Below the pieces are notes generated by a model. The model was not told the origin of the DNA. It worked only from the letters and a program-made list of their open reading frames with translations, and ran no database searches. DNA of 64,000 nucleotides from Butyrivibrio fibrisolvens. GTDB taxonomy: Bacteria; Bacillota; Clostridia; Lachnospirales; Lachnospiraceae. The stretch lies in the NCBI RefSeq assembly GCF_023206215.1, contig NZ_CP065800.1:3224001-3288000 (forward strand). The letters are read 5' to 3'. The position numbers were made by a program, and so were the translations under genes. Positions 1 to 59,892 of this stretch are shown piece after piece; the stretch's first letter is position 1, and each line of letters opens with the position of its first letter.

Positions 1-794
1 TTTACACTTACTTTAAAAGTCGCATTTCTGTTGAGTATATTAAGTGATATCGCTGATGAAGTAGGATTACTAAGCCCAAAGTTAAGAACTAGTATTTTTT
101 CTCCATCTCCTGCTACTACACCGCCTTGTGCACTCGATGAAGGATAGGCATTCATAACCGAATAACCGTTAAATGAAAGTTTAAGACCACCAAGTTCAGA
201 ATCCAGATCAGATAGGTCATCATCCGCAGCCGCTGTTTCTACTGTATTTTGCAGATCAGACCCGCTGTCATCCTGGTCCGTTCCTTTGTCAGATCCGTCA
301 TCATTTCCCTGACCACCAGATACATCTATAGAAACATCTGTACTGCTGTCTGTATCAGTATTATCGTCTTCTATACCTGCAACAATGTTATCATCTCCTG
401 ATTCAGGAACATCAATATCACTTCCTGTCTGGTCAATATTATCAGCATCAGGATCATCCGCTTCTGTATTACCTGCATCAACCACTTCTGTAGTCTGCCC
501 TTCACCAGCCTCAATCGCCATGTCGGCAAAAGCATTGGTAGTATCCACTGTCTTTTTTTCATCATAGTAAGGACCTTTATCAGAATTCTTGATAGCCACA
601 TAAGTCAGATCATCCACTACATTGTACGAATACTTCATAAGAAGCTCTGCTGCATAGGTTGTCACTTGATCGTATTCCTCTTTGTTCTCTTCTTTTGAGA
701 TGGGAATCGTATCATCTGTTGCGCATGCAGACATAAACAGAGAAACCGATGGAATTATTATGATCAATGATATTTTGGACAATAATCTCTTCAT
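1..794 (-). CDS. lipoprotein, C-terminus outside window
   Basis: A secreted lipoprotein of unknown function; about 264 codons are present and the gene runs off the left edge. The start at 794 has an AGGA Shine-Dalgarno 8 nt upstream. Residues 1-23 are a signal peptide (MKRLLSK, then a run of I/L) ending in an MSAC lipobox, so Cys24 should be lipidated. A long low-complexity linker rich in D, S, G and T follows, then a folded region reaching the edge (KILVLNFGLSN), which resembles the Ig-like beta-sandwich of small Firmicutes lipoproteins (inference). It lies 138 bp downstream of the histidine kinase gene on the same strand, so it could be read through from that operon. I do not recognise a specific family. 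Confidence 0.8.
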   Translation of the reverse strand, partial: MKRLLSKISLIIIIPSVSLFMSACATDDTIPISKEENKEEYDQVTTYAAELLMKYSYNVVDDLTYVAIKNSDKGPYYDEKKTVDTTNAFADMAIEAGEGQTTEVVDAGNTEADDPDADNIDQTGSDIDVPESGDDNIVAGIEDDNTDTDSSTDVSIDVSGGQGNDDGSDKGTDQDDSGSDLQNTVETAAADDDLSDLDSELGGLKLSFNGYSVMNAYPSSSAQGGVVAGDGEKILVLNFGLSNPTSSAISLNILNRNATFKVSV

Positions 795-932
795 TTTCTT
801 GTTCCTACTTTCATGAGCTATCACAACTTTTGTTCAGGTACCAATGTTTTCAGTAATGCCAAATCTTATGGTTAATATTTCATACTGCCTTCTGTAGTGT
901 CTTACTCATATCTGATCAAATCATGAACATGT

Positions 933-2432
933 CTAGCAGGTCTCAAGCTCAAACCAGAATTCAACACCTTTTTCGCAATTCACAACTCCATATCTTTGTC
1001 CCATTGAGTCCATGATAGCTTTCACTATCGACAGACCCACGCCGCTTCCGCCGTATTCTCTGGTTCTTGCTTTATCAACTTTATAAAACTTCTCCCAGAG
1101 ATGTTCAATACTATCTTGAGGAATTGGATCTCCAGTATTATAGACGGACACCCTAACTACTCCGTCACCTTTTTTGAATTTTATCTTTATTATCCTGTCT
1201 CCATCTATATGGTTTAGAGCATTGCTGTAATAGTTCTGAAGTACCTCCTCTACCTTGAATTCATCTGCCCAGACATATATCGGTTCAGAATCCTCTATCT
1301 GCACAGTGACATCTTTCTGCTTCGCTAATATATCGGCTGATTTGAGATAATTCTGAATAACCGCTACTATATCAAAGCGTTCAAGATTATAATTGTTCTT
1401 GCCAAATTCCAGCTCATTGAGCGTCATAAGCTGTTTGACCATCTTATTCATCTTGCCCGCTTCATCTACAATTACATCGCAGTAAAACTCCCTGCTTTCA
1501 GGATCATCATCTGCTATTCCATCCTGCAGTCCTTCTGCATATCCTTGGATCAGTGCAATAGGAGTCTTGAGCTCGTGAGAAACATTTGCAAGAAATTCAC
1601 TCCTCATCTTGTCTATCTTTTCTTTGGTTTCAATATCTTTTTTCAGTTCCAGGTTAGCTGTCTTCAATTCACGTATCGTTTTTTCAAGCGTTTCCGAAAG
1701 TTCGTTTATATTTTCTCCCAGAAGATCAAGCTCATTTTTATGTTTGCTCGTATATTTTGCATCGAAATCCAGTTCCTTCATCCTATTTGAGATTTCAGTA
1801 AGTTTACTGATTGGTTTAGTGATCCTTCTTGCCAGAAAAAAAGATAATAACGCCCCGATCAAAAGAATTCCTATCGCTACATAAGTCATAAAAGTATTGG
1901 AAATTCGTACACTGTCTTTAATTCCTTCCAGCGCACTTCTTATCATGAATACATTTCCATTATCCAAAAAGCCGAACATTTCCATATAATCAGTATCTGT
2001 TCTTGCATCTGTGTCTATTTGGAGAATATAATCGTCTTTTTGAATCAGTATCGTCGGATTATCACTATATTCAGATAACCCCAGCATGTTAGCCCATAGT
2101 TTTTTCTGAAGATAAAAATAATCAGGAGATGACGATTTTACGATGTTCGAATTTTCGTCCGCAACGATAACATCAATGTTATAGCGTTCACATATCCTCA
2201 TCAGTTCTATGTTAAAAGAATCCGAGGTAATGTCCCCTGAATTCATCGCATCATTGACGCTTTCATAAGCTATAGTTATTACATTAGCTTTATCATTTAT
2301 ATAATATTTTTCAAGTAATATATTATTAAAAAGCAAAACGCCGCCCACCATGCCTATTAAAAGTACTGCAAAGATAAGCATGAAGTCACGGCGAAGCGGT
2401 CTTTTTATTTTGTTTTTGTTATTATCACTCAT
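933..2432 (-). CDS. sensor histidine kinase, HAMP-HisKA-HATPase
   Basis: Membrane sensor kinase of 499 residues, partner of the response regulator directly upstream. TM1 is at about 18-38 and TM2 at about 180-200, enclosing an extracytoplasmic sensor of about 140 residues. A HAMP segment (ARRITKPISKL, from 201) and a coiled coil (240-275) lead to the HisKA H-box NVSHELKTPI with phospho-acceptor His286. The ATPase N-box has Asn404 (YYSNALNH). G1 is NTGDP (432-436) and G2 is GGSGVGLSIV (461-470). All catalytic residues are present. Start 2432 lies 5 nt after the regulator stop, with GAGG inside the end of that gene, which suggests translational coupling. The signal sensed is unknown. Confidence 0.95.
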   Translation of the reverse strand: MSDNNKNKIKRPLRRDFMLIFAVLLIGMVGGVLLFNNILLEKYYINDKANVITIAYESVNDAMNSGDITSDSFNIELMRICERYNIDVIVADENSNIVKSSSPDYFYLQKKLWANMLGLSEYSDNPTILIQKDDYILQIDTDARTDTDYMEMFGFLDNGNVFMIRSALEGIKDSVRISNTFMTYVAIGILLIGALLSFFLARRITKPISKLTEISNRMKELDFDAKYTSKHKNELDLLGENINELSETLEKTIRELKTANLELKKDIETKEKIDKMRSEFLANVSHELKTPIALIQGYAEGLQDGIADDDPESREFYCDVIVDEAGKMNKMVKQLMTLNELEFGKNNYNLERFDIVAVIQNYLKSADILAKQKDVTVQIEDSEPIYVWADEFKVEEVLQNYYSNALNHIDGDRIIKIKFKKGDGVVRVSVYNTGDPIPQDSIEHLWEKFYKVDKARTREYGGSGVGLSIVKAIMDSMGQRYGVVNCEKGVEFWFELETC

Positions 2433-2437
2433 AATAA

Positions 2438-3112
2438 CTATACCTCAAACTTATATCCCATCCCCCAAATAGTCTTTATCATGTCACCTTTATCTCCTAG
2501 TTTTGCTCTTAGTTTTTTTACATGAGTATCTATGGTTCTTGCATCACCGAAGTAGTCATAATTCCAAACATTATTCAGAATATTTTCTCTCGAAAGTGCG
2601 ATTCCTTTATTCTCAAGGAAATAAGTAAGCAGTTCAAACTCCTTAAAAGATAGTTCAATAGGGGTACCATCGATAGAAGCAATATGAGCAGATTTATTGA
2701 TAACGATACCGCCTTCTTCGATAGAATCTTCATTAGACGTCTGAGAGCTTCTTCTAAGTATAGCCGAAACTCTGGCAACGAGAATCTTAGGGCTAAATGG
2801 TTTAGATATATATTCATCCACTCCAAGTTCAAATCCCTGAAGCTCATCTCTTTCATCAGACCTTGCAGTCAGCATTATTATCGGGACTTTGCTGTACCTT
2901 CTTATCTCGCGACATACTTCCCATCCGTCCATCTTAGGCATCATCACATCAAGTATTATCAAAGATATACTCTTATCAGCAAAAAACTTGTCTATAGCTT
3001 CCATTCCATCACCGGCCTCTTCCACTTCATACCCGGCTTTTATCAGGAAATCACTGACAAGTTTTCTCATTCTGCTTTCATCATCTACTACTAAAATCTT
3101 AAGTTTATCCAT
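2438..3112 (-). CDS. OmpR/PhoB-family response regulator
   Basis: Transcription factor of 224 residues and first gene of a two-gene operon with the downstream histidine kinase. The receiver domain (1-120) has the acidic pair Asp10-Asp11, phospho-acceptor Asp55 (LIILDVMMPKMDG), Thr82 and Lys104 (SKPF). The C-terminal winged helix (about 130-224) carries the family signature ARTIDTHVKKLRAKLG followed by IWGMGYKFEV. The ATG is preceded by AAGGG only one base away. A much better GGAGG lies about 35 nt upstream, separated from the ATG by a small hairpin (AGACC ... GGTCT), so initiation may be atypical. Targets are unknown. Confidence 0.95.
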   Translation of the reverse strand: MDKLKILVVDDESRMRKLVSDFLIKAGYEVEEAGDGMEAIDKFFADKSISLIILDVMMPKMDGWEVCREIRRYSKVPIIMLTARSDERDELQGFELGVDEYISKPFSPKILVARVSAILRRSSQTSNEDSIEEGGIVINKSAHIASIDGTPIELSFKEFELLTYFLENKGIALSRENILNNVWNYDYFGDARTIDTHVKKLRAKLGDKGDMIKTIWGMGYKFEV

Positions 3113-3152
3113 TCCCTTAGTCAGACCTCTTTTACGGGTCTTCGCCTCCTTT

Positions 3153-3193
3153 GTATACTATACAGGGCTCACAACGACCATATATATAGTATA
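3153..3193. promoter_or_regulatory. inverted repeat upstream of the response regulator
   Basis: GTATACTATA (3153-3162) and its exact inverse TATAGTATAC (3184-3193) are separated by 21 bp, 41-81 bp upstream of the regulator start. The arms contain TATACT/TATAGT boxes that could serve as -10 elements on the minus strand. This could be an autoregulatory operator (inference). Confidence 0.4.
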
Positions 3194-3253
3194 CCCTTTA
3201 TATGTCTTTTTTGTGAAAAGATAAAAATCCTCCCTCAAACGTTTATATACAAA

Positions 3254-3910
3254 TCACTCCTCTTCAGAAGAGCTTCTAAAATCCTTCTTTGATTCAATTC
3301 CAAGTTCTTTCTCTTTTTCCTTCACTGCCTTCTCTCTCTCAGCAAGCTCCTCTTCCCAGGCTTCATACTCATCGGTTATAGTTTCTTTATAATTAAGCAC
3401 AGTAGTTGAACTGTTACTAGCAGCTATGAGGAACATCGCAATTACAAGGATTATCAGGAATATATTTAGAAAAAGAGAATACTGCAAAAATTTGGGGCTT
3501 TTCTTTTTCTCCGGTTTTTCTTTAACAATTTCCTTCGGAACATAATCATCAGGAGAAGTTGTATGTGTATAGATATGCTTTAGTTCTATAGATGGCATAT
3601 CAGACAGATCCCCTCCCTGGAGCATGACCTGACGACGCAAAAAAGACAGAAAGCTCCATCCAAGAGGCGTTCCAAATACTTTGTTCTGTATAGATTTAGT
3701 ATAGACTGTTTTAATATTGGCAAGACTGTTCAGTTTGACATGGGACTCCAGATACTCTATTTTTCTGGCATCGACTCTTGCTTTGTCTGCGTCTTCTTTG
3801 GTCTTAAACAAAAAGCCGCCAACATCAAGTGCATCATCAGTCTCTACAGGATCATTCTTAGCAGGCTCAGTATTTTTATCTGGAATTATATTGTCTCGCA
3901 AATCTGCCAT
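3254..3910 (-). CDS. hypothetical single-pass membrane protein
   Basis: Protein of 218 residues with no family I recognise. I place the start at 3910 (MADLRDN) because AGGAGG sits 5 nt upstream; a longer ORF adds seven residues without a ribosome site. Residues 1-140 are hydrophilic and probably cytosolic. A short KEKPEKKKS stretch precedes one transmembrane helix at about 141-160. The C-terminus (170-218) is a highly charged predicted coiled coil (EEELAEREKAVKEKEKE) ending in SSSEEE. It lies 142 bp upstream of the two-component operon on the same strand. Upstream are the hairpin array and long palindrome described separately. Confidence 0.8.
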   Translation of the reverse strand: MADLRDNIIPDKNTEPAKNDPVETDDALDVGGFLFKTKEDADKARVDARKIEYLESHVKLNSLANIKTVYTKSIQNKVFGTPLGWSFLSFLRRQVMLQGGDLSDMPSIELKHIYTHTTSPDDYVPKEIVKEKPEKKKSPKFLQYSLFLNIFLIILVIAMFLIAASNSSTTVLNYKETITDEYEAWEEELAEREKAVKEKEKELGIESKKDFRSSSEEE

Positions 3911-3985
3911 TGCAGCCTCCTGAAGATACACAATAACCCATTTTTCGCAAAATCATTATCCCCTCAGCAGCTAATTTTTTTGGGG

Positions 3986-4059
3986 GGATGTATTTCCATG
4001 TACAAATACAGGATGTATTTAGTACATGTATGGAAATACATGGATGTATTTCCATGTAC
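3986..4059. repeat. hairpin repeat array, copy 1 (about 1.5 units)
   Basis: About one and a half units of a repeat that recurs at 30661-30803. Each unit has two nested palindromes. One is GGAAATACAT joined to GATGTATTTCC. The other is CATGTAC, AAATAC, loop, GTATTT, GTACATG. The second stem keeps pairing between loci although bases differ (AAATAC/GTATTT here, GGATAC/GTATCC there), which argues for selection on structure. It lies 76-149 bp upstream of the membrane-protein gene starting at 3910. Confidence 0.8.
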
Positions 4060-4152
4060 TTCACTCTTCTATTTCGGCAGAAAATCCAATAATATCAAGA
4101 TTTTATTTTGTTTTATCCAGGATTTGCTTCAAACATACAATAAATAAGTTCT

Positions 4153-4471
4153 TGTTATCTGACTCAAACTTCGCACTTGCCAAACATACGCCACCCTCTG
4201 AGGCAGCGCCGATGCGGGTAGTTTATAATGCATTTTCATATCTTTTGAAGGTGTTATAAAATTCAGGAGCATGAGAGATGGATTTTTATATTCTTCTTAG
4301 GGTCTGCATGTCTGAGCGAAGCGAGTTTCAGACCCTAGAATATAAAAATCCAGATATCATGCCCTGAATTATAACACCTTCAAGATATGAAAATGCATTA
4401 TAAACTATCCGCATCGGCGTTGCCTCAGAGGGTGGCGTATGTTTGGCAAGTGCGAAGTTTCTGTTATCTGA
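4153..4471. repeat. long palindromic element A
   Basis: Imperfect inverted repeat with arms of about 140 bp (4166-4306 and 4329-4460) around a 22-nt loop (4307-4328, ending GCGAAGCGAGTTT). The inner part, from about AAATTCAGG outward of the loop, is shared with element B at 51780-52033, including a 4-nt TTCT bulge in the left arm and an internal loop. The outer arms are unrelated to those of B but still pair with each other. Direct repeats TGTTATCTGA at 4153-4162 and 4462-4471 bound the palindrome like a target duplication. It fills most of the 715-bp gap between glgX and the gene starting at 3910. No coding potential is evident. It could be a mobile foldback element, a cruciform or a structured RNA. 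Confidence 0.85.
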
Positions 4472-4625
4472 GTGTAATCAAGTCAATAAAACAAAAAAGA
4501 TTTTATTGCCGGATCAAAGTCCAGACAATAAAATCCTTTTTATTTTTATAAATACTTATTTCAAATCTACCACTTCGGCAGTGAAATATCCTCAAAGAAG
4601 CTTTTTAACTTGCTCTCATCCCTGA

Positions 4626-6794
4626 TCACGAATAATCTGTCGGGAAATTACCAACAAATACACTTACGCTTCGTGCTTTCAATATCCATCCCTCATCTGT
4701 CAGCGGTACAGGCCTATTATAAAAGAACTTGCCATCCGTAGCTCCTGTATTTATAGCAAGAGCCCAATATCCACCTCCGGGAAGCCCGGGAAGTTTTATA
4801 GCTATATCTTCCCAGAAAACATTGATCGCAATATATACTACATCATCATGACCTTTTTCTCTGGAAAAGCCTGCAAAACGGATACCAATCATTCTGCTAT
4901 CCTTAGTTATATTACCATTATAAGGATCTTCTACATGGCAACTTTCATAAGGAAGGCCGCATCTAGCAGGTTGTAAATCTTTTCTGATCGCAGGATGCCT
5001 TTTCCTAAACTGTATAGCATTTCTATAAAAATCATAGAAATCGTGGTTTTTATTAATAAGATCCCAGTTAAGCCAGGATATCTCATTATCCTGACAATAA
5101 GCATTATTGTTACCAAACTGGGTATTGGCAAACTCATCACCGGCAAGCAGCATTGGTGTACCTCTGGAGCACATAAGGATCGTAATGGCATTGCGCATCA
5201 TCCTAAAGCGCAGCTTTAAAATCTCAGGATCATCAGTCTCTCCTTCTTGGCCGCAGTTCCAGCTTCTGTTATCATCTGTTCCGTCAGTATTGTTCCATCC
5301 GTTAGCTTCATTATGCTTGCCATTATATGAATACAGATCATATAGAGGAAAACCATCATGACAGGTTATAAAATTGATCGATGAATTATAACCAACATAC
5401 TCACCACCATAAAGGTCCATGGAACCTGTGATCCTCTTTATTGCTTCCGGCGCAGACCAGTACTCACCCTTAAGATATGAACGAATGTCGTCACGGTATT
5501 TGCCGTTCCATTCAGCCCATCTGTTCCATGCAGGAAAACTCCCTACCTGATACATTCCACCTGCATCCCAGGCTTCTGCGATTAGTTTACAGTTGCCAAG
5601 GATAGGATCATAAGCAAGTCTCTGAATAAGAGGTGGCCTGTCCATTGGAGTACCATCCTCATTTCTACCAAGAATGCTCGCAAGATCAAAGCGGAATCCA
5701 TCCACTCTATAATCCTCAACCCAGTAGCGCAGGCAATTGACTATCATCTCCTGAACCAGTGGATTGTTACAGTTCACAGTATTGCCACACCCTGAGAAAT
5801 TGTAATATTTGCCGTCAGGTGTCAGCATATAGTAGATATTATTATCAAAACCTTTAAAAGAAATAAAGGGACCGTTCTCATTACCTTCAGCTGTATGATT
5901 GAATACAACATCAAGGATTACTTCTATTCCATTATCCTTAAATTCTTTTATAAGATTTTTGAGTTCAAGACCTTCGTAATTGTACTCGCCAACAGAAGCA
6001 TAAGCTGTGTTTGGTGCAAAAAAACTGACCGTGTTATATCCCCAGTAATCAAGCAAGGTTCGCCCGTTAACTTCTCTTTTATCCCTAGTCTCATCAAACT
6101 CGAAAATAGGCATCAGCTCTACTGCTGTTATTCCAAGATGCTTAAGGTAAGGCACCTTCTCCTTAAGTCCTTCAAAAGTTCCGGGATACCTTACACCGGA
6201 AGACGGGTCTTTGGTGAACCCTCTAACATGAAGCTCGTATATGATAGAGTCTTCCATGGGAGTTTCAAGCTGCCTTGTAGCATTCCACTCAAAGTTATTC
6301 CTTACTATTCTGGCTCTGTATATGCCATTTCTATTATCATTCTGTCCCCAGATGCGTTGCCCGCTTACAGCCTTGGCATACGGATCCAGAAGCATATGCT
6401 TTTTATCAAAAAGAAGCCCTCTTGACGGATCCCAGGGACCATCAACAGAATATGCATATTCAATATTCTCTATATCCAGTCCGAATACGATCATTGAATA
6501 TGTCTTACCGATTTTATAAGATTCAGGAAAAGGGATTGTTCCAAAAGGAGCAGAATCGCCTCTGTGGAATAACAATAATGTTATAGACTTGGCTCCTTTA
6601 GAATAGCATGTAAAATTAACACCATCAGGGATGACAGTGGCTCCGTTCATTTCATAATAACCAGGCCTGATACGAAAACCATTGATCTCATCAAGTGCCA
6701 GCATCTGGCGGTTTAGATCCATCTTTCTGAATTCTACACCGCGGTGCTCTCTGAGTACTTTTCTTTCTACTCTGCGTCTTCTGAACTCTTGCAT
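4626..6794 (-). CDS. glgX: glycogen debranching enzyme, GH13 isoamylase type
   Basis: Cytosolic alpha-1,6-glucan hydrolase of 722 residues that debranches glycogen or limit dextrins. An N-terminal CBM48-like domain (about 40-170) precedes the GH13 barrel. Conserved regions are visible: DVVFNH (295-300), GFRFDLAS with nucleophile Asp370, LIAEAWD with acid/base Glu407, and FITCHDG with Asp480. GTPMLLAGDE also fits the family. The length is normal for GlgX/TreX-type enzymes. The start ATG has GGAAGG upstream. The first 30 residues are very basic (MQEFRRRRVERK) and probably lie outside the fold. It appears monocistronic; element A lies 3' of it. Isoamylase is the closest alternative name. Confidence 0.93.
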   Translation of the reverse strand: MQEFRRRRVERKVLREHRGVEFRKMDLNRQMLALDEINGFRIRPGYYEMNGATVIPDGVNFTCYSKGAKSITLLLFHRGDSAPFGTIPFPESYKIGKTYSMIVFGLDIENIEYAYSVDGPWDPSRGLLFDKKHMLLDPYAKAVSGQRIWGQNDNRNGIYRARIVRNNFEWNATRQLETPMEDSIIYELHVRGFTKDPSSGVRYPGTFEGLKEKVPYLKHLGITAVELMPIFEFDETRDKREVNGRTLLDYWGYNTVSFFAPNTAYASVGEYNYEGLELKNLIKEFKDNGIEVILDVVFNHTAEGNENGPFISFKGFDNNIYYMLTPDGKYYNFSGCGNTVNCNNPLVQEMIVNCLRYWVEDYRVDGFRFDLASILGRNEDGTPMDRPPLIQRLAYDPILGNCKLIAEAWDAGGMYQVGSFPAWNRWAEWNGKYRDDIRSYLKGEYWSAPEAIKRITGSMDLYGGEYVGYNSSINFITCHDGFPLYDLYSYNGKHNEANGWNNTDGTDDNRSWNCGQEGETDDPEILKLRFRMMRNAITILMCSRGTPMLLAGDEFANTQFGNNNAYCQDNEISWLNWDLINKNHDFYDFYRNAIQFRKRHPAIRKDLQPARCGLPYESCHVEDPYNGNITKDSRMIGIRFAGFSREKGHDDVVYIAINVFWEDIAIKLPGLPGGGYWALAINTGATDGKFFYNRPVPLTDEGWILKARSVSVFVGNFPTDYS

Positions 6795-6852
6795 AAAAAA
6801 CCTTCCGCCTTTGTAAATGTTTTTAAACGCAAAACCTCATTTATAGTTTAAC

Positions 6853-6897
6853 ATAAAAAAACACCCCGGAAAACCAATTTGGTAAATCCGAGGTGTT
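6853..6897 (-). terminator. intrinsic terminator after the decarboxylase operon
   Basis: Read on the minus strand, AACACCTCGGA pairs with TCCGGGGTGTT (one mismatch) and is followed by seven T. It lies 63 bp after the stop of the 5S-like carboxyltransferase gene and ends the five-gene operon before glgX. Confidence 0.85.
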
Positions 6898-6959
6898 ATG
6901 TTTTTGGAATTATAAAAATATAGTAATAGTATACACTATATTCTCAACTAAAGCTCCTA

Positions 6960-8372
6960 TTAAGCAGGATATGCTCCGTTCTTAGTATCAGCCTTAGCAA
7001 GATCTACTCCGCTCTTCTGAGCTTCACGATACTTGAAGAAGTCTGTAGCAACCTGAGGGAATAATGCGTATGAAAGAACATCTTCATCGCATGTAGCCCA
7101 CTGCTTGCACTCTTCTCTGAACTTGTCCATCTGAGGCTCGATAAGATCTGCAGGACGGCATGTGATACGCTCTTCGTCGCCGATGCACTTCTTAACAACT
7201 TCAGGATCCATAGGCTTGATAGTCTGACCGTATTTACCTCTTACAAGGTCCTTGGTCTGCTCAGGAACGATCTTATATCTCTCGCCCATAAGGACGTTCA
7301 TAACTGCCTGAGTACCAACGATCTGTGATGAAGGTGTAACGAGCGGTGGCTCACCAAGGTCTTTACGAACTCTCGGTACTTCTTCAAGAACTGCTTCAAG
7401 CTTATCAAGCTTGCCCTGATCAGAGAGCTGCTTAGTAAGGTTAGAAAGCATACCACCAGGTACCTGATACATAAGAGTCTTGATATTAACACCAAGAACC
7501 TTAGTAGACATAAGTCCTGACTCAAGGCACTCTTCTCTGTATGGACGGAAGTGATCAGCAATCTTAGAAAGGATCTTCTGATCATAACCTGTATCGTATG
7601 GTGTTCCCTTAAGGGCTTCAACCATAACTTCTGTAGCAGGCTGTGATGTACCAAGAGCAAATGGGCTGATTGCGCAGTCGATGATATCAACACCGGCTTC
7701 AATAGCCTTCATGTATGTCATGCTGGCTACACCTGATGTGTAGTGAGTATGAAGTTCGATCGGGATCTTAGTACCGCTCTTTAATGCTCTGACAAGCTTA
7801 TCTGCTTCGTAAGGAAGAAGAAGTCCTGCCATATCCTTGATACAGAGTGAATCAGCACCAAGTGACTCGATCTCACCAGCAATTCTCTTCCAGTATTCAT
7901 CATCATAAGCACCGCCAAGTGTGTAGGAAAGAGCGATCTGAGCTTTTCCGCCATACTTCTTGCAGGCCTTTACAGATGTCTCAAGGTTACGAAGGTCATT
8001 AAGACAGTCGAAGATACGGATGATATCAATACCGTTCTCGATTGACTTAGCAACGAAAGCTTCTACTACGTCATCAGCATAGTGGCTGTATCCAAGAAGG
8101 TTCTGACCACGAAGAAGCATCTGAAGAGGTGTATTTTTGAAGCCTTCTTTAAGTTTACGAAGTCTTACCCATGGATCCTCTTTAAGGAAACGAAGGCATG
8201 AATCAAATGTAGCACCACCCCAGCACTCTACTGCGGCATATCCTACTTTGTCCATTGTATCAACAATAGGAAGCATCTGCTCTATTGGCATTCTGGTAGC
8301 GATCAGAGACTGATGTGCATCACGAAGGACTGTCTCGGTGATCTTTACCGGTTTTCTTTCAATATCAGACAT
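6960..8372 (-). CDS. oadA: biotin-dependent carboxyltransferase, OadA / transcarboxylase 5S type
   Basis: Cytosolic carboxyltransferase of 470 residues that exchanges CO2 between oxaloacetate or pyruvate and carboxybiotin. The HMGL-like TIM barrel starts with TVLRDAHQS (metal-site Asp18) and has the lysine motif CIKDMAGLL and the metal-binding histidines of ELHTHYTSG. A conserved carboxylase domain follows. The biotinyl domain found at the C-terminus of many OadA/PycB proteins is absent; biotin is carried by the separate protein at 9568-9924, as in the 5S subunit of Propionibacterium transcarboxylase. Last gene of the operon, 20 bp after oadB. Whether the physiological substrate is oxaloacetate or pyruvate cannot be read from sequence. 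Confidence 0.9.
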   Translation of the reverse strand: MSDIERKPVKITETVLRDAHQSLIATRMPIEQMLPIVDTMDKVGYAAVECWGGATFDSCLRFLKEDPWVRLRKLKEGFKNTPLQMLLRGQNLLGYSHYADDVVEAFVAKSIENGIDIIRIFDCLNDLRNLETSVKACKKYGGKAQIALSYTLGGAYDDEYWKRIAGEIESLGADSLCIKDMAGLLLPYEADKLVRALKSGTKIPIELHTHYTSGVASMTYMKAIEAGVDIIDCAISPFALGTSQPATEVMVEALKGTPYDTGYDQKILSKIADHFRPYREECLESGLMSTKVLGVNIKTLMYQVPGGMLSNLTKQLSDQGKLDKLEAVLEEVPRVRKDLGEPPLVTPSSQIVGTQAVMNVLMGERYKIVPEQTKDLVRGKYGQTIKPMDPEVVKKCIGDEERITCRPADLIEPQMDKFREECKQWATCDEDVLSYALFPQVATDFFKYREAQKSGVDLAKADTKNGAYPA

Positions 8373-8392
8373 AGATTTTCTCCTTTATAAAT

Positions 8393-9538
8393 TTAGATTC
8401 CGAATATCGCCATAAATGTACCGGCAACAACTGCTGTTCCGATTACACCTGCAACGTTAGGTCCCATAGCATGCATTAGAAGGAAGTTGGTAGGATCTGT
8501 TTCAGCACCAACCTTCTGAGATACACGTGCAGCCATAGGAACGGCTGATACACCGGCTGAACCGATAAGCGGATTGATGCTTCCACCACTGAAAAGATTC
8601 ATCAGCTTACCGAACAGTACACCTGCGGCTGTTCCTACTGCAAACGCAATAAGACCAAGAGCTACGATCTTAAGTGTAGCAACATTAAGGAATGCTTCTG
8701 CACTTGTAGAAGCTCCAACTGATGTACCAAGAAGGATAACTACAATGTACATAAGTGCATTAGATGCTGTCTCCTGAAGCTGGTGTACTACACCACACTC
8801 ACGGAAGAGGTTACCAAGCATCAGCATACCAATAAGCGGAGCTGTTGTAGGAAGGATCATGCAGACAACGACTGTAACAACAATAGGGAAGAGAATCTTC
8901 TCAAGCTGTGATACAGGACGAAGCTGAAGCATGCGAATCTTACGTTCCTTCTCTGTTGTGAAAAGCTTCATGATCGGAGGCTGGATGATCGGTACAAGTG
9001 ACATGTACGAATATGCAGCAACGGCAATAGGTCCAAGAAGAGTTGTGCAACCAAGCTTTGTAGCAAGGAAGATAGATGTAGGACCATCAGCACCACCGAT
9101 TATAGAGATAGAAGCAGCTTCTGTTCCGGAGAATCCCATAAAGATAGCCATAAAGTAAGCTGAGAAAATACCGAACTGTGCTGCTGCACCAAGCAGGAAT
9201 GACTTAGGGTTGGCAATAAGCGGACCAAAGTCGGTCATCGCACCTACACCCATGAATATGAGTGAAGGAAGGATAGACCATTCATCCAGCTTGTAGAAAT
9301 ATGTGAATAATCCACCGCCGCTTCCGTCTTCGGATATCTCGTGCATAATATCAGGATAGATATTAACAAGAAGCATACCAAATGCGATCGGAACAAGAAG
9401 CAGAGGTTCAAAATCATGGGCTATAGCCAAATAAAGAAATACGAACGCTACAAGAATCATAACATAATTGCCCCAGTAAAGGTTCTGGAAAGCTGTCTGA
9501 TTCCATAGATTCGAAAAGGTTTCAACGATTTTTTCCAT
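8393..9538 (-). CDS. oadB: sodium-pumping decarboxylase beta subunit
   Basis: Integral membrane subunit of 381 residues with about nine to eleven hydrophobic segments. In this family it decarboxylates carboxybiotin and couples this to sodium export. The conserved GGADGPTS loop is present with the essential Asp at 151. The second conserved region, [20 protein letters not shown] (321-340), carries the Asn, Ser and Arg residues implicated in sodium and proton movement in Klebsiella OadB (established for the family). Length is slightly shorter than enterobacterial OadB (about 430), as usual in Firmicutes. It lies between the biotin carrier and the 5S-like gene, 29 and 20 bp apart, so all three are co-transcribed. 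Confidence 0.95.
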
Positions 9539-9567
9539 TATTGTTCCTCCAGTAGAATACGTAACTA

Positions 9568-9924
9568 TTAGTTAAGTGTCGCAAGAACTGCTCCTGCTTC
9601 TACTGAATCACCTACTGCGCAGTCAATGCTTGCAACAGTTCCGTCTGAAGGAGCAACCATAGGAATCTCCATCTTCATAGACTCGATTGTAACAACAGCG
9701 TCACCCTTCTTAACAGCCTGTCCTACGTTAGCGTTAACCTTAACAACCTTTCCGGCTGCACCGGCTTCAACCTTGATTGAACCAGCACCAGCGGATGCCT
9801 TCTTAGCTGCAGGAGCTTTCTTAGGAGCTGCCTTTGGAGCTGCTGCAGGAGCTGCGCCGCCTGCACCTTCTTCTACTGTAACATCATATACGTTGCCATT
9901 TACGGTAATAGTATAGTTTTTCAT
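9568..9924 (-). CDS. biotin carboxyl carrier protein of the decarboxylase
   Basis: Protein of 118 residues carrying the mobile biotin. After a short N-terminal strand region ([15 protein letters not shown]) comes a flexible Ala-Pro-Lys linker (about 20-47), then a biotinyl domain (50-118) with the hallmark ESMKMEIP. Lys84 is the biotinylated residue. The size and the Ala/Pro linker match GcdC/MmdC or the 1.3S subunit of transcarboxylase. It should shuttle the carboxyl group between the 12S-like enzyme, the 5S-like enzyme and the OadB pump encoded around it. Confidence 0.95.
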
Positions 9925-10012
9925 GTTTATCCCTTCCTGCCGTATGTATAACGGCTTCGAAATTTTATGTGAATCCTGTAAATTCTTATCTTGTGTTGCC
10001 GTGAGGCATCAG

Positions 10013-10408
10013 TTATGCTCTGGCTCCGGAACGTCTCTTTCTAATAGAACGAACAACAAATCCATCACCGGATGCAGAAGCGTTACTTCCCTCATAAGCT
10101 GCGATAGCTGCTGCAATTACAGCAACAAGCTCATCATCATCAGAAAGATCCTCTTCTTCTACAACCTCAGGAGCTGCTGCAGGCTTGTTTGCAGGAGCTG
10201 GAGCAGGCTGTTTCTTACCGATCTTTCCGATCATAGGGAAAAGAGAAATGATCAGACTGATAAGAATAAGTACTGCAAATGCAGTTCCCATTCCAAGCAG
10301 TGTATTAATACCCGCATCAGCAAGAGCGTCAGCCATTGAAGTAGTTCCAGTTGCTTCAAGAGCTATAGGAAGATAAGATAAAGAACTTGTAAAAAATTCC
10401 ATCATCAT
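10013..10408 (-). CDS. OadG-like small membrane subunit
   Basis: Protein of up to 131 residues with one transmembrane helix at about 37-59, followed by a Lys/Pro/Ala linker and an acidic segment with DELVAVIAAAIAAYEG. This matches the gamma/delta subunits (OadG, MmdD) that anchor sodium-pumping decarboxylases. The C-terminus is basic (VVRSIRKRRSGARA). Three ATGs in a row (10408, 10405, 10402) follow AAGGAGG; the second or third has the better spacing, so the true protein may be one or two residues shorter. It starts 8 bp after the carboxyltransferase stop. Assignment is by topology and context more than by a strict motif. Confidence 0.8.
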   Translation of the reverse strand: MMMEFFTSSLSYLPIALEATGTTSMADALADAGINTLLGMGTAFAVLILISLIISLFPMIGKIGKKQPAPAPANKPAAAPEVVEEEDLSDDDELVAVIAAAIAAYEGSNASASGDGFVVRSIRKRRSGARA

Positions 10409-10416
10409 TTACCTCC

Positions 10417-11838
10417 TTATTTCGTTACATGCTTCTTTGCAGGTTTAGCTTCTCTCTTTGTAAAAAGCATTTCTAATGCACCGATAACATATTTTCTTGT
10501 ATCTGCAGGCTCGATGATCTCGTCAACATAGCCTCTTCTTGCAGCACTTACAGCGCTGTTCTGAAGCTTAGCATACTCAGCTGCGATCTCATTAACCTCT
10601 TCTGCGCTCTTACCATCACCGATGATCTTGGCAGCCATATCTGCTTCCATAGTTCCGATCTGGGAATCAGGCCAGCATACATTGATATCTGCCTTAGAGT
10701 TCATGATAACGAATGCGCTACCAAGAGCCTTACCTGTAACAACGTTAACCTTCGGAACAGAAGCATTACCAAGTGCAGAAACAAGTGATGCTGCATTCTT
10801 GGCAAGTCTTCTCTCCTCACATGTTGTTGCAAGGAATCCCTTTACGTTAGTGAATGTAACGATAGGAAGATCGAATGCATCGCAGAAACGTACAAAATCA
10901 GCAGCCTTCTCAAGACCGTTTGCTGTAAGAACTGCATCGAACTTCTCTTTTTCTTTACCATTTTCATCAAATACTACGCTGCGGTTTGCAACAGCACCTA
11001 CTGTAGCACCGTTAAGCTTGATGAATCCTGTAACCATCTCTTTAGCGTACTCTCTCTTTGTTTCAAAGAAAACGCCGTTATCTGAAAGAATTGAAAGTGC
11101 AAGTGCAGGATCTGCAACTGCTCCGTCAAAATTCTCAAGTGATCTGTTAAGATCATCAGCACACTCTTCATAGAAGTCGCTGTCTTCGTTATTGGAAGGA
11201 AGAAGACTTACAAGCTGACGAATCTCGTTGTAGATTGTCTCTTCATCACCAGCTACATCTACGATTCCAGTCTTAGAGCTCTGGAAATCAGCAGCTGCTG
11301 TGTCACACTTCTCTTCATAATTGCCTTTAATGGAATTTGGAGAATTAACGAAAAGCTTTCCGTTCTTGGTCTCCATGAATGTAAAATCAGAAAGTGCCGG
11401 TACAAGTGCCAGACCACCACCACAGCCACCGAATACAGCTGTGATCTGAGGAACAACTCCTGAAGCCTCAACCTCTTTAGCGTAGATCTCGCCAAAAGCT
11501 GAAAGAGCATCTGTTGCCTCCTGAAGACGCATACCTGTAGAATCAATAAGACCAATTACAGGTGCTCCCATCTTGACTGCCATATCGTAGATACGTGCAA
11601 TCTTCTTTGCATGCATTTCACCAACGGAACCGCCTAGTACACTTGCGTCCTGGCTGTATACATACACAAGGTTACCATCGATGACACCATATCCCGTAAC
11701 AACACCATCGGATGGAGTCTCTGACTGTTTCAGACCGAAGTCAGTGCTCCTTGCTGTAACCATAGCACCAATTTCGACGAAACTGTTCTCATCGAGTAAA
11801 GCATTAATTCTTTGACTCGCCTGTGAAGTACTACTCAT
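10417..11838 (-). CDS. acyl-CoA carboxyltransferase, MmdA / transcarboxylase 12S type
   Basis: Protein of 473 residues and first gene of the operon. Two crotonase-like carboxyltransferase halves are visible. The N half has the GGSVGEMHAKK and FGGCGGGLALVPAL loops that form the oxyanion hole and bind CoA. The C half has NVKGFLATTCEE and VVTGKALGSAFVIM. Family members decarboxylate or transcarboxylate methylmalonyl-, propionyl-, glutaconyl- or malonyl-CoA with biotin. It is shorter than typical MmdA (about 510-520), and the central region is reduced. Substrate cannot be decided from sequence; methylmalonyl-CoA is the commonest in this gene order. Confidence 0.85.
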   Translation of the reverse strand: MSSTSQASQRINALLDENSFVEIGAMVTARSTDFGLKQSETPSDGVVTGYGVIDGNLVYVYSQDASVLGGSVGEMHAKKIARIYDMAVKMGAPVIGLIDSTGMRLQEATDALSAFGEIYAKEVEASGVVPQITAVFGGCGGGLALVPALSDFTFMETKNGKLFVNSPNSIKGNYEEKCDTAAADFQSSKTGIVDVAGDEETIYNEIRQLVSLLPSNNEDSDFYEECADDLNRSLENFDGAVADPALALSILSDNGVFFETKREYAKEMVTGFIKLNGATVGAVANRSVVFDENGKEKEKFDAVLTANGLEKAADFVRFCDAFDLPIVTFTNVKGFLATTCEERRLAKNAASLVSALGNASVPKVNVVTGKALGSAFVIMNSKADINVCWPDSQIGTMEADMAAKIIGDGKSAEEVNEIAAEYAKLQNSAVSAARRGYVDEIIEPADTRKYVIGALEMLFTKREAKPAKKHVTK

Positions 11839-51779: not shown

Positions 51780-52033
51780 GTGGCTCAATGCCATAGCAGT
51801 CCTGAGGCTGGCAGCTGATAAATGATTTTGGGGTCTCTGAAAATTATATTAAATTCAAGAGCGTGATAGATGGATATTTATATTCTTCTCAGGGTCCGCA
51901 TGCCACCGCGAAGCGAGTTTCGGACCCTAGAATATAAATATCCAGATATCATGCCTTGAATTTTATATAATTTTCACGACCCCAAAATCATTTATCAGCT
52001 GCCAGCCTCAGGACTACTATGGCATTGAGCCAC
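51780..52033. repeat. long palindromic element B
   Basis: Inverted repeat with arms of about 115-119 bp (51780-51898 and 51921-52033) and a 22-nt loop ending GCGAAGCGAGTTT. The inner core matches element A (4153-4471), including the left-arm TTCT bulge and internal loop. Several base pairs have changed on both sides together (for example GGATAT/ATATCC here against GGATTT/AAATCC in A, and GGTCCG/CGGACC against GGTCTG/CAGACC). The outer arms (GTGGCTCAATGCCATAG and so on) are unrelated to A yet pair with each other. It occupies most of the 375-bp gap between the 24-residue ORF and the MreB-like gene. Confidence 0.85.
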
Positions 52034-59800: not shown

Positions 59801-59835
59801 GATAGCAAGATACTTATCAAATAGTTTTAATGATT

Positions 59836-59878
59836 AACTTCCCACTTGGACGGACCGGCATCCCCCAAGTGGGAAGTT
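59836..59878 (+). terminator. hairpin after the YitT-like gene
   Basis: AACTTCCCACTTGG and CCAAGTGGGAAGTT form a perfect 14-bp stem around a 15-nt loop, 36 bp after the stop. The T-run is short (TTTG). Confidence 0.7.
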
Positions 59879-59892
59879 TGAGTGAATAATAA

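Follow-up and report, generated by a model that had tools for sequence, protein, structure and literature searches.

A probable MITE-like mobile hairpin with a separately conserved tip in Butyrivibrio fibrisolvens

Two long palindromes in the window, the 64,000-nucleotide stretch of Butyrivibrio fibrisolvens DNA analysed here, raise the question of what kind of element would share its centre, but seemingly not its arms, between two loci. Element A (4163-4461, plus strand) has arms at 4166-4244 and 4382-4460 (79 nt, 97% complementary) and element B (51780-52033, plus strand) at 51780-51835 and 51978-52033 (56 nt, 98% complementary). These arms are the first two entries in an inverted-repeat listing of the window, and both palindromes are as the first-pass annotation described them. 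The core that it reported as common to the two is equally real, including a 22-nt apical loop ending GCGAAGCGAGTTT (4307-4328 in A and 51899-51920 in B, where it reads CATGCCACCGCGAAGCGAGTTT) and a TTCT bulge; it occupies 4255-4375 of A and 51847-51967 of B, where the covariance model R1, built from 23 cores, scores 146.6 and 130.3 bits, respectively. The claimed compensated base pairs between copies also hold up, with 31 of 43 pairs changed on both sides compared to 11.6 in shuffles, a figure obtained from alignment A2 (112 rows, 104 distinct, 4 antisense), which is fitted to the structure and as such favours covariation. The positions 4153 and 4471 given earlier as the ends of A are the outer limits of a 10-bp direct repeat, TGTTATCTGA, found in exact copies at 4153-4162 and 4462-4471, between which lie the left (AAACTTCGCACTTG, 4166-4179, plus strand) and right (4447-4460, minus strand) terminal repeats of the element, both matching a common terminus. 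No open reading frame of at least 80 aa overlaps A or B.

The genome to which the window belongs (G000; 4.45 Mb in two contigs) contains many copies. A first-look search with the core of A returned 124 candidates, and all 40 of those scored were matched, while R1 recovered 108 sense cores scoring at least 85 bits. Two fragments near 47 bits come next on the sense strand, and all other matches are these palindromes read in antisense. The flanks of C1:7604 and C1:4112417 are identical and the spacing is repeated at C1:2206/4107021, which makes it probable that one copy is duplicated at the contig ends and that 107 are distinct. Contig C1 seems to have a terminal redundancy of ~11 kb (near 1-11400 and 4104814-4116214), with two repeated features at equal spacing. 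Arms pair well in 105 of 110 places (the 108 copies and the two fragments; arm-pairing filter), with an aligned length mostly of 110-150 bases and an identity of 0.85-0.99, the exceptions being truncated, interrupted or misaligned copies. Based on our ORF calls, nearly all copies are intergenic, in every gene orientation, and the few gene overlaps involve short low-scoring frames or closely adjoining genes; by the same calls, genes are abutted more by the right end of the element than by the left (66 vs 25, p 2e-5). Copies separated by less than 1 kb form 11 pairs, every one of them in minus-then-plus order with the left ends facing, and of the 16 pairs separated by less than 3 kb, 12 show this order. 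One close pair of this order in G000 is formed by C1:1106722 and C1:1107226. Among 61 sampled genomes of the genus, seven, G000 included, gave matches at 1e-10, from two to at least 59 per genome; one of them, G060, holds 15 core matches, two of which are antisense.

The first-pass annotation held that the arms outside the core are unrelated, which is true of A against B (62% identity, approximately background) but not of the family, in which arms are mostly common to many copies. Single-linkage comparison of 153 copies from G000 and the sister species G042 (156 minus three truncated or interrupted) placed 149 copies in three arm families of 74 (I), 39 (II), and 36 (III) at 72% identity, leaving four singletons; at 80% identity the families split into groups of 45, 25, 20, and smaller, and 46 of the 153 copies are singletons. 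A is one of 36 family II copies in G000, and B belongs to family III, 33 members of which are from G042 and three from G000. The argument that a normal MITE would have the same arms arose because the comparison set a member of family II against a member of family III, which has only three representatives in this genome. The suggestion of variable hairpin cargo is likewise unsupported. Many matches with locus-specific arms would, by the first-pass annotation, have supported a new element class; the cores were there (108 in G000), as were empty orthologous loci, but the arms are not locus-specific.

A 14-bp terminus, AAACTTC[GC]CACTTG, lies at a near-constant distance from the core in many copies, and this pattern has 193 matches in G000 at up to one mismatch compared to one for the reversed control. 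By arm family, both termini can be identified in 30 of the 74 copies of family I, 28 of the 39 of family II, and 5 of the 36 of family III, and terminal inverted repeats (TIRs) common to copies are present in 54 of the 110 places in G000 (both ends within 3 mismatches), being weak for family III. The A-type terminus is unrecognised in B (5 and 6 mismatches), and its want of a terminus or target repeat is in keeping with the small fraction of its family with both ends recognisable; its core, its arm family, and the few family III copies that keep the terminus indicate that B belongs to the mobile element. At the 54 two-ended places, identity between 8-bp flanking direct repeats is 0.479 compared to 0.382 in shuffled partners (sd 0.020; maximum 0.444 in 200 shuffles), at an offset that is the best of 49 tried and with the shuffle null taken at that offset only. 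The direct repeats are AT-rich, 7-10 bp in single cases, and not constant in length.

Comparison with G042 reveals insertion in both genomes. Element A is absent from its syntenic place there, where the neighbouring amylase-like protein is 96% identical to that of G000. An empty site in G042 (L399) corresponds to the copy C1_1054489, with ATTAATT present singly in G042, and ATTAATT and ATAAATT around the element in G000. In the reverse direction, L245 in G000 is empty relative to the element-bearing G042 locus L376, with flanks 97-99% identical; the element at L376 has AATAGATA at its left side and AGTAGATA at its right, and its right terminus is incomplete. Eighteen young copies were queried for empty sites. 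Of these, 12 had a G042 match, and an alignment spanning the insertion point was obtained for one; the intergenic DNA of the remaining matches is diverged or unmatched and allows no decision either way. At least 7 of the 48 G042 copies are in places also occupied in G000 (six pairs plus L362/L106), a lower bound since a DNA match of 250 bases was required. The arms of these seven syntenic pairs are 0.83-1.00 identical in four and 0.62-0.68 in three (median of all pairs 0.65), and the latter three, whose arms are at background identity, may reflect separate insertions or replaced arms instead of orthology. Unrelated arms in the same intergenic region of G042 and G000 were observed at L378/C1_549718, L389/C1_171143, L362/C1_3433417, and L408/C1_2592464, the G042 copy at L408, one of the 12 matches above, having family III-like arms (family judged by eye). 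Such elements represent either repeated insertion at one place or replacement of a whole hairpin.

We propose that A and B are examples of a MITE-like mobile hairpin of about 300 bp, neither autonomous nor coding, the arms of which are kept complementary by template switching and the core of which is functional (probability approximately 0.7). For families I and II, mobility as a MITE-like hairpin has good support from the many copies, the 14-bp terminus in two arm families, the AT-rich direct repeats, the two empty sites, the few positions shared with the sister species, and the remnants described below. The mobilising enzyme would act in trans. Hairpin-mediated template switching would keep the arms complementary at the DNA level, allowing them to drift as a pair into families, and tips would occasionally be exchanged between copies. 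The apical core of ~120 nt (22-nt loop, GCGNAGC, and fixed bulges) would be the part under function, as a single strand of either RNA or DNA, and is probably bound by the mobilising or another factor; function as a single strand is suggested by a far greater tolerance of G.U than A.C on one strand and by the recurrence of the loop across phyla.

Paired change in the arms is visible among 22 family II copies, in which six private changes (in four copies) affect both arms and 25 affect one arm, compared to about 0.03 two-arm changes expected from independent mutation by our estimate. Outer-arm mismatches read on the sense strand comprise 185 G.U and 160 A.C (p 0.2), indicating no clear strand bias, with the one-arm changes of family II leaning to G.U (28 vs 17 A.C). 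At C1_1124460/L358 the element is inverted between the same flanks, with arms 0.95 and tips 0.97 identical. In the parts of PMC8604942 and PMC8794818 covered here, template switching between inverted repeats leads to the same arm homogenisation and spacer inversion, although the inverted repeats of those studies are in yeast coding genes and RNA genes and the element here is a mobile repeat. Many copies have lost their centre and persist as internally deleted remnants. Among the 100 TIR matches listed of 193, 44 are core-less, and at 17 of 26 core-less sites the TIR is accompanied by another within 2 mismatches, with a span of 42-75 bp in 15 cases; allowing 4 mismatches raises the count to 23 of the 26, but a random control passes in 33%. 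One collapsed copy is found in the window as a 45-bp palindrome (59835-59879, minus strand), with both termini within 45 bp and the core lost.

The tip behaves as a unit apart from the arms. Core columns with one dominant Watson-Crick pair contain 21 G.U and 4 A.C cells (p 0.0009, our tally), for which reason the sense strand seems to be constrained as a folded strand, and this bias may partly reflect shared ancestry. The loop heptamer GCGNAGC is present in 94 of 108 G000 copies and in all 48 G042 copies; as DNA, GCGAAGC forms an extraordinarily stable mini-hairpin according to the parts of PMC6582339 covered. Compared with its G042 ortholog L386, B has identical arms (1.00) and nearly identical flanks, but a tip only 0.72 identical, the variant differing on both stem sides between GATAGATGGA and CCAGATATC. 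A similar, weaker difference is found at C1_559949/L364 (arms 0.84, tip 0.78), while C1_584852 and C1_3578485 have identical tips on arms that are 63% alike. Such exchange is occasional, given that tips mostly follow arm families (nearest tip in another family for 8 of 149 copies, compared to 74 with shuffled labels), and could be ordinary gene conversion.

The same loop is found far outside the genus. The exact 19-mer GTCTGAGCGAAGCGAGTTT, corresponding to 4310-4328 of A, was detected in at least 120 stretches from several phyla in a scan of one genome per species, compared to a chance expectation of about two in 257 Gb by our estimate; the 80 matches listed include Burkholderiales, Lysobacter relatives, Bacteroidota, delta-proteobacterial groups, Pasteurellaceae, Selenomonas, and Lachnospiraceae. 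Of 117 usable matches (127 minus ten within 150 nt of a stretch end), 94 have the loop closed by a stem of at least 5 bp, compared to 13% when the arms are drawn from different loci. Most commonly, 2 or 3 nt separate this stem from the loop on the left side and no nucleotide does so on the right, the arrangement also seen in A and B. For longer arms, 82 of the 117 exceed the 99% shuffle line. The stems themselves differ widely (93 distinct left 9-mers). Pairing of 90-93% of cells in 72 chosen loop stretches is an inflated figure, because the rows of the alignments concerned (A3 and A4; 37 and 35 of 102 non-redundant) were chosen for having their best stem begin 2 or 3 nt away from the loop. 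Loop counts allowing up to one mismatch, taken in 18 selected genomes, include 70, 60, and 139 compared to 0, 8, and 38 in reversed controls; no enrichment over the control was seen in G071 (65 vs 44) or G069 (1 vs 1), and G046 has no loop at this threshold despite six matches to the core model. The idea of a common neighbouring gene was set aside after a comparison around 120 loop-bearing stretches: several recurrent protein clusters coincide with the loop itself and represent translated repeat sequence, and the widest neighbouring-gene cluster (19 loci) lies at scattered distances from the loop.

A MITE of one genus leaves this recurrence across phyla unexplained. A loop that recurs on unrelated arms in distant bacteria hints at a common partner. 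We tentatively suggest that mobile hairpins of different phyla form a class defined by the tip (a single conserved loop of about NNTGTCTGAGCGNAGCGAGTTT with bulges below) and not by terminal repeats, in which a widespread and undescribed factor would recognise the folded strand and spread or maintain the hairpins, and the arms could be any self-complementary sequence; we consider this broader proposal possible but less likely than not.

Searches for a mobilising enzyme covered two protein families, Y1_Tnp and RVT_1, and 26 core-less sites read by eye, and found neither an autonomous copy nor a matching transposase; no transposon-length TIR pair was recognised at the loci read among the 100 TIR matches listed of 193. 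RAYTs are longer Y1_Tnp proteins, and none of that size was found in G000, where three Y1_Tnp matches have open frames of 137-157 aa; larger Y1 proteins are encoded elsewhere in the genus and by several of the genomes with the loop. The statement that the window holds no reverse transcriptase extends to the whole of G000, which has no RVT_1 match at E 0.001. Among element- or loop-bearing genomes, 6 of 11 have an RVT_1 match, and G060, G062, G064, and G070 have none. No Rfam family matched the element at gathering score in the window and 18 loop-bearing loci (one 6S RNA was found elsewhere in L139), and a permissive search of three elements gave sub-threshold matches only, on long hairpins. 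Literature searches by loop strings, 3' motif strings, and words returned no description of the element in the papers listed, within a scope that leaves out most subscription papers and all bioRxiv preprints.

Alternative explanations were weighed against these observations. That the arms are inverted copies of flanking DNA, produced by reverse transcription or fold-back synthesis at each insertion, was suggested by arms that are long and nearly perfect and by two window copies that look private. It is now very improbable, as the arms are common to 36-74 copies at 72% identity and, in 54 two-ended copies, stop at a conserved terminus beside direct repeats; these common arms and conserved ends largely refute it for families I and II, and the lack of an RVT_1 match in G000, G060, G062, G064, and G070 also counts against it. 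A reverse transcriptase is rejected for G000 on this basis. Hardly more credible are ordinary bidirectional transcription terminators kept between genes. Abutting gene ends are 3' in 66 cases and 5' in 25 by our ORF calls, as such terminators would have it, yet neighbouring genes overall face the element with their 3' and 5' ends equally (108 and 107), and terminators account neither for conserved termini, direct repeats, and empty sites nor for a loop conserved across phyla.

A REP-like element whose single-stranded DNA is mobilised by a Y1/HUH transposase (RAYT or 'TIRYT') ranks equally low in our estimation. RAYT genes flanked by long TIRs, some partly self-complementary, are known from the parts of PMC3733652 covered, and a GCGNAGC loop would suit single-stranded DNA. 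Against this, the Y1_Tnp frames of G000 number three and reach only 137-157 aa, 3 of 15 loop-holding genomes have no Y1 match, the loop is near only 1 of 60 Y1 loci, and the elements end in direct repeats. Orientation bias between contig halves is also absent, which is a weak replichore test since neighbouring gene strands suggest that the origin is not at the contig start. A RAYT or TIRtron reading was rejected for G000 but may apply elsewhere, larger Y1 proteins being present in other genomes. A structured non-coding RNA with variable stems, acting in trans or as a UTR element and mobile only secondarily, is unlikely but the most serious of these alternatives. It draws on the sense-strand G.U tolerance and covariation of the core, the cross-phylum conservation of the loop, and the orientation of copies abutting gene starts (22 sense vs 3, our ORF calls). 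It is at odds with outer arms that show no clear strand bias, with the scarcity of both G.U (12 of 528 cells) and A.C (4 of 528) in the cross-phylum stems, with the few positions shared with the sister species, and with the lack of an Rfam match above threshold. The corresponding suggestion of the first-pass annotation may apply to the ~120-nt core.

The mobile hairpin proposed here resembles MITEs in being short, non-coding, multicopy, and intergenic, with terminal inverted repeats, direct repeats at the insertion, and empty orthologous sites. It differs from them in that a single long hairpin, having fixed bulges and a conserved domain at its apex, makes up the entire element, one kind of tip is carried on three arm families, family III is mostly without the terminus, and no parent transposase was found in the two families searched (Y1_Tnp and RVT_1). 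REPs, BIMEs, REPtrons, and TIRtrons, which are associated with RAYTs, are likewise multicopy extragenic palindromes, often in inverted pairs; however, REPs are 20-40 bp compared to about 300 bp for the element, which ends with direct repeats in a genome without a RAYT-size Y1. The REP/RAYT system has a GTAG or CGTC tag at one end (parts covered of PMC3733652). The unusual feature of the element is a tip that is conserved apart from the arms, exchangeable, and common to several phyla. Small mobile hairpins are common and poorly understood, and G000 and its sister species exhibit arm symmetry, inversion, tip exchange, insertion, and collapse together, making the source of 'compensatory' pairs in a repeat testable. 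If correct, a tip-defined class predicts a conserved binding partner that could be found with a single short hairpin, and would explain at one stroke a large number of palindromic repeats that lack annotation.

Immediately 3' of the loop hairpin, many of the loci read in Proteobacteria and Bacteroidota have a pyrimidine-purine motif similar to CTTTCTTTGGTTACTTTCTTTGGC...GCAAAGAAAGTAAC. It resembles the intrastrand triplex motifs of PMC4666352, the triplex being our reading, and the parts of that paper covered do not describe a hairpin with this loop; nothing triplex-like was seen in A or B. A 3' motif around TTTCTTTGGTTACTTTCTTTGG follows the loop hairpin at L149, L154, L169, L221, and others. 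Loop hairpins on several further contigs (L234, L236, L190, and L165) have very long arms in which an outer internal loop recurs, its left side TTTGCAG-like and its right side GAAAC. A different inverted repeat, of the ATGTATTTCCATGTAC type, is found beside A at about 3985-4065 of the window, a similar sequence is present to the right of copy C1_376451, and a related string near C1_2919124; based on its occurrence at these three places, it probably represents a second repeat family.
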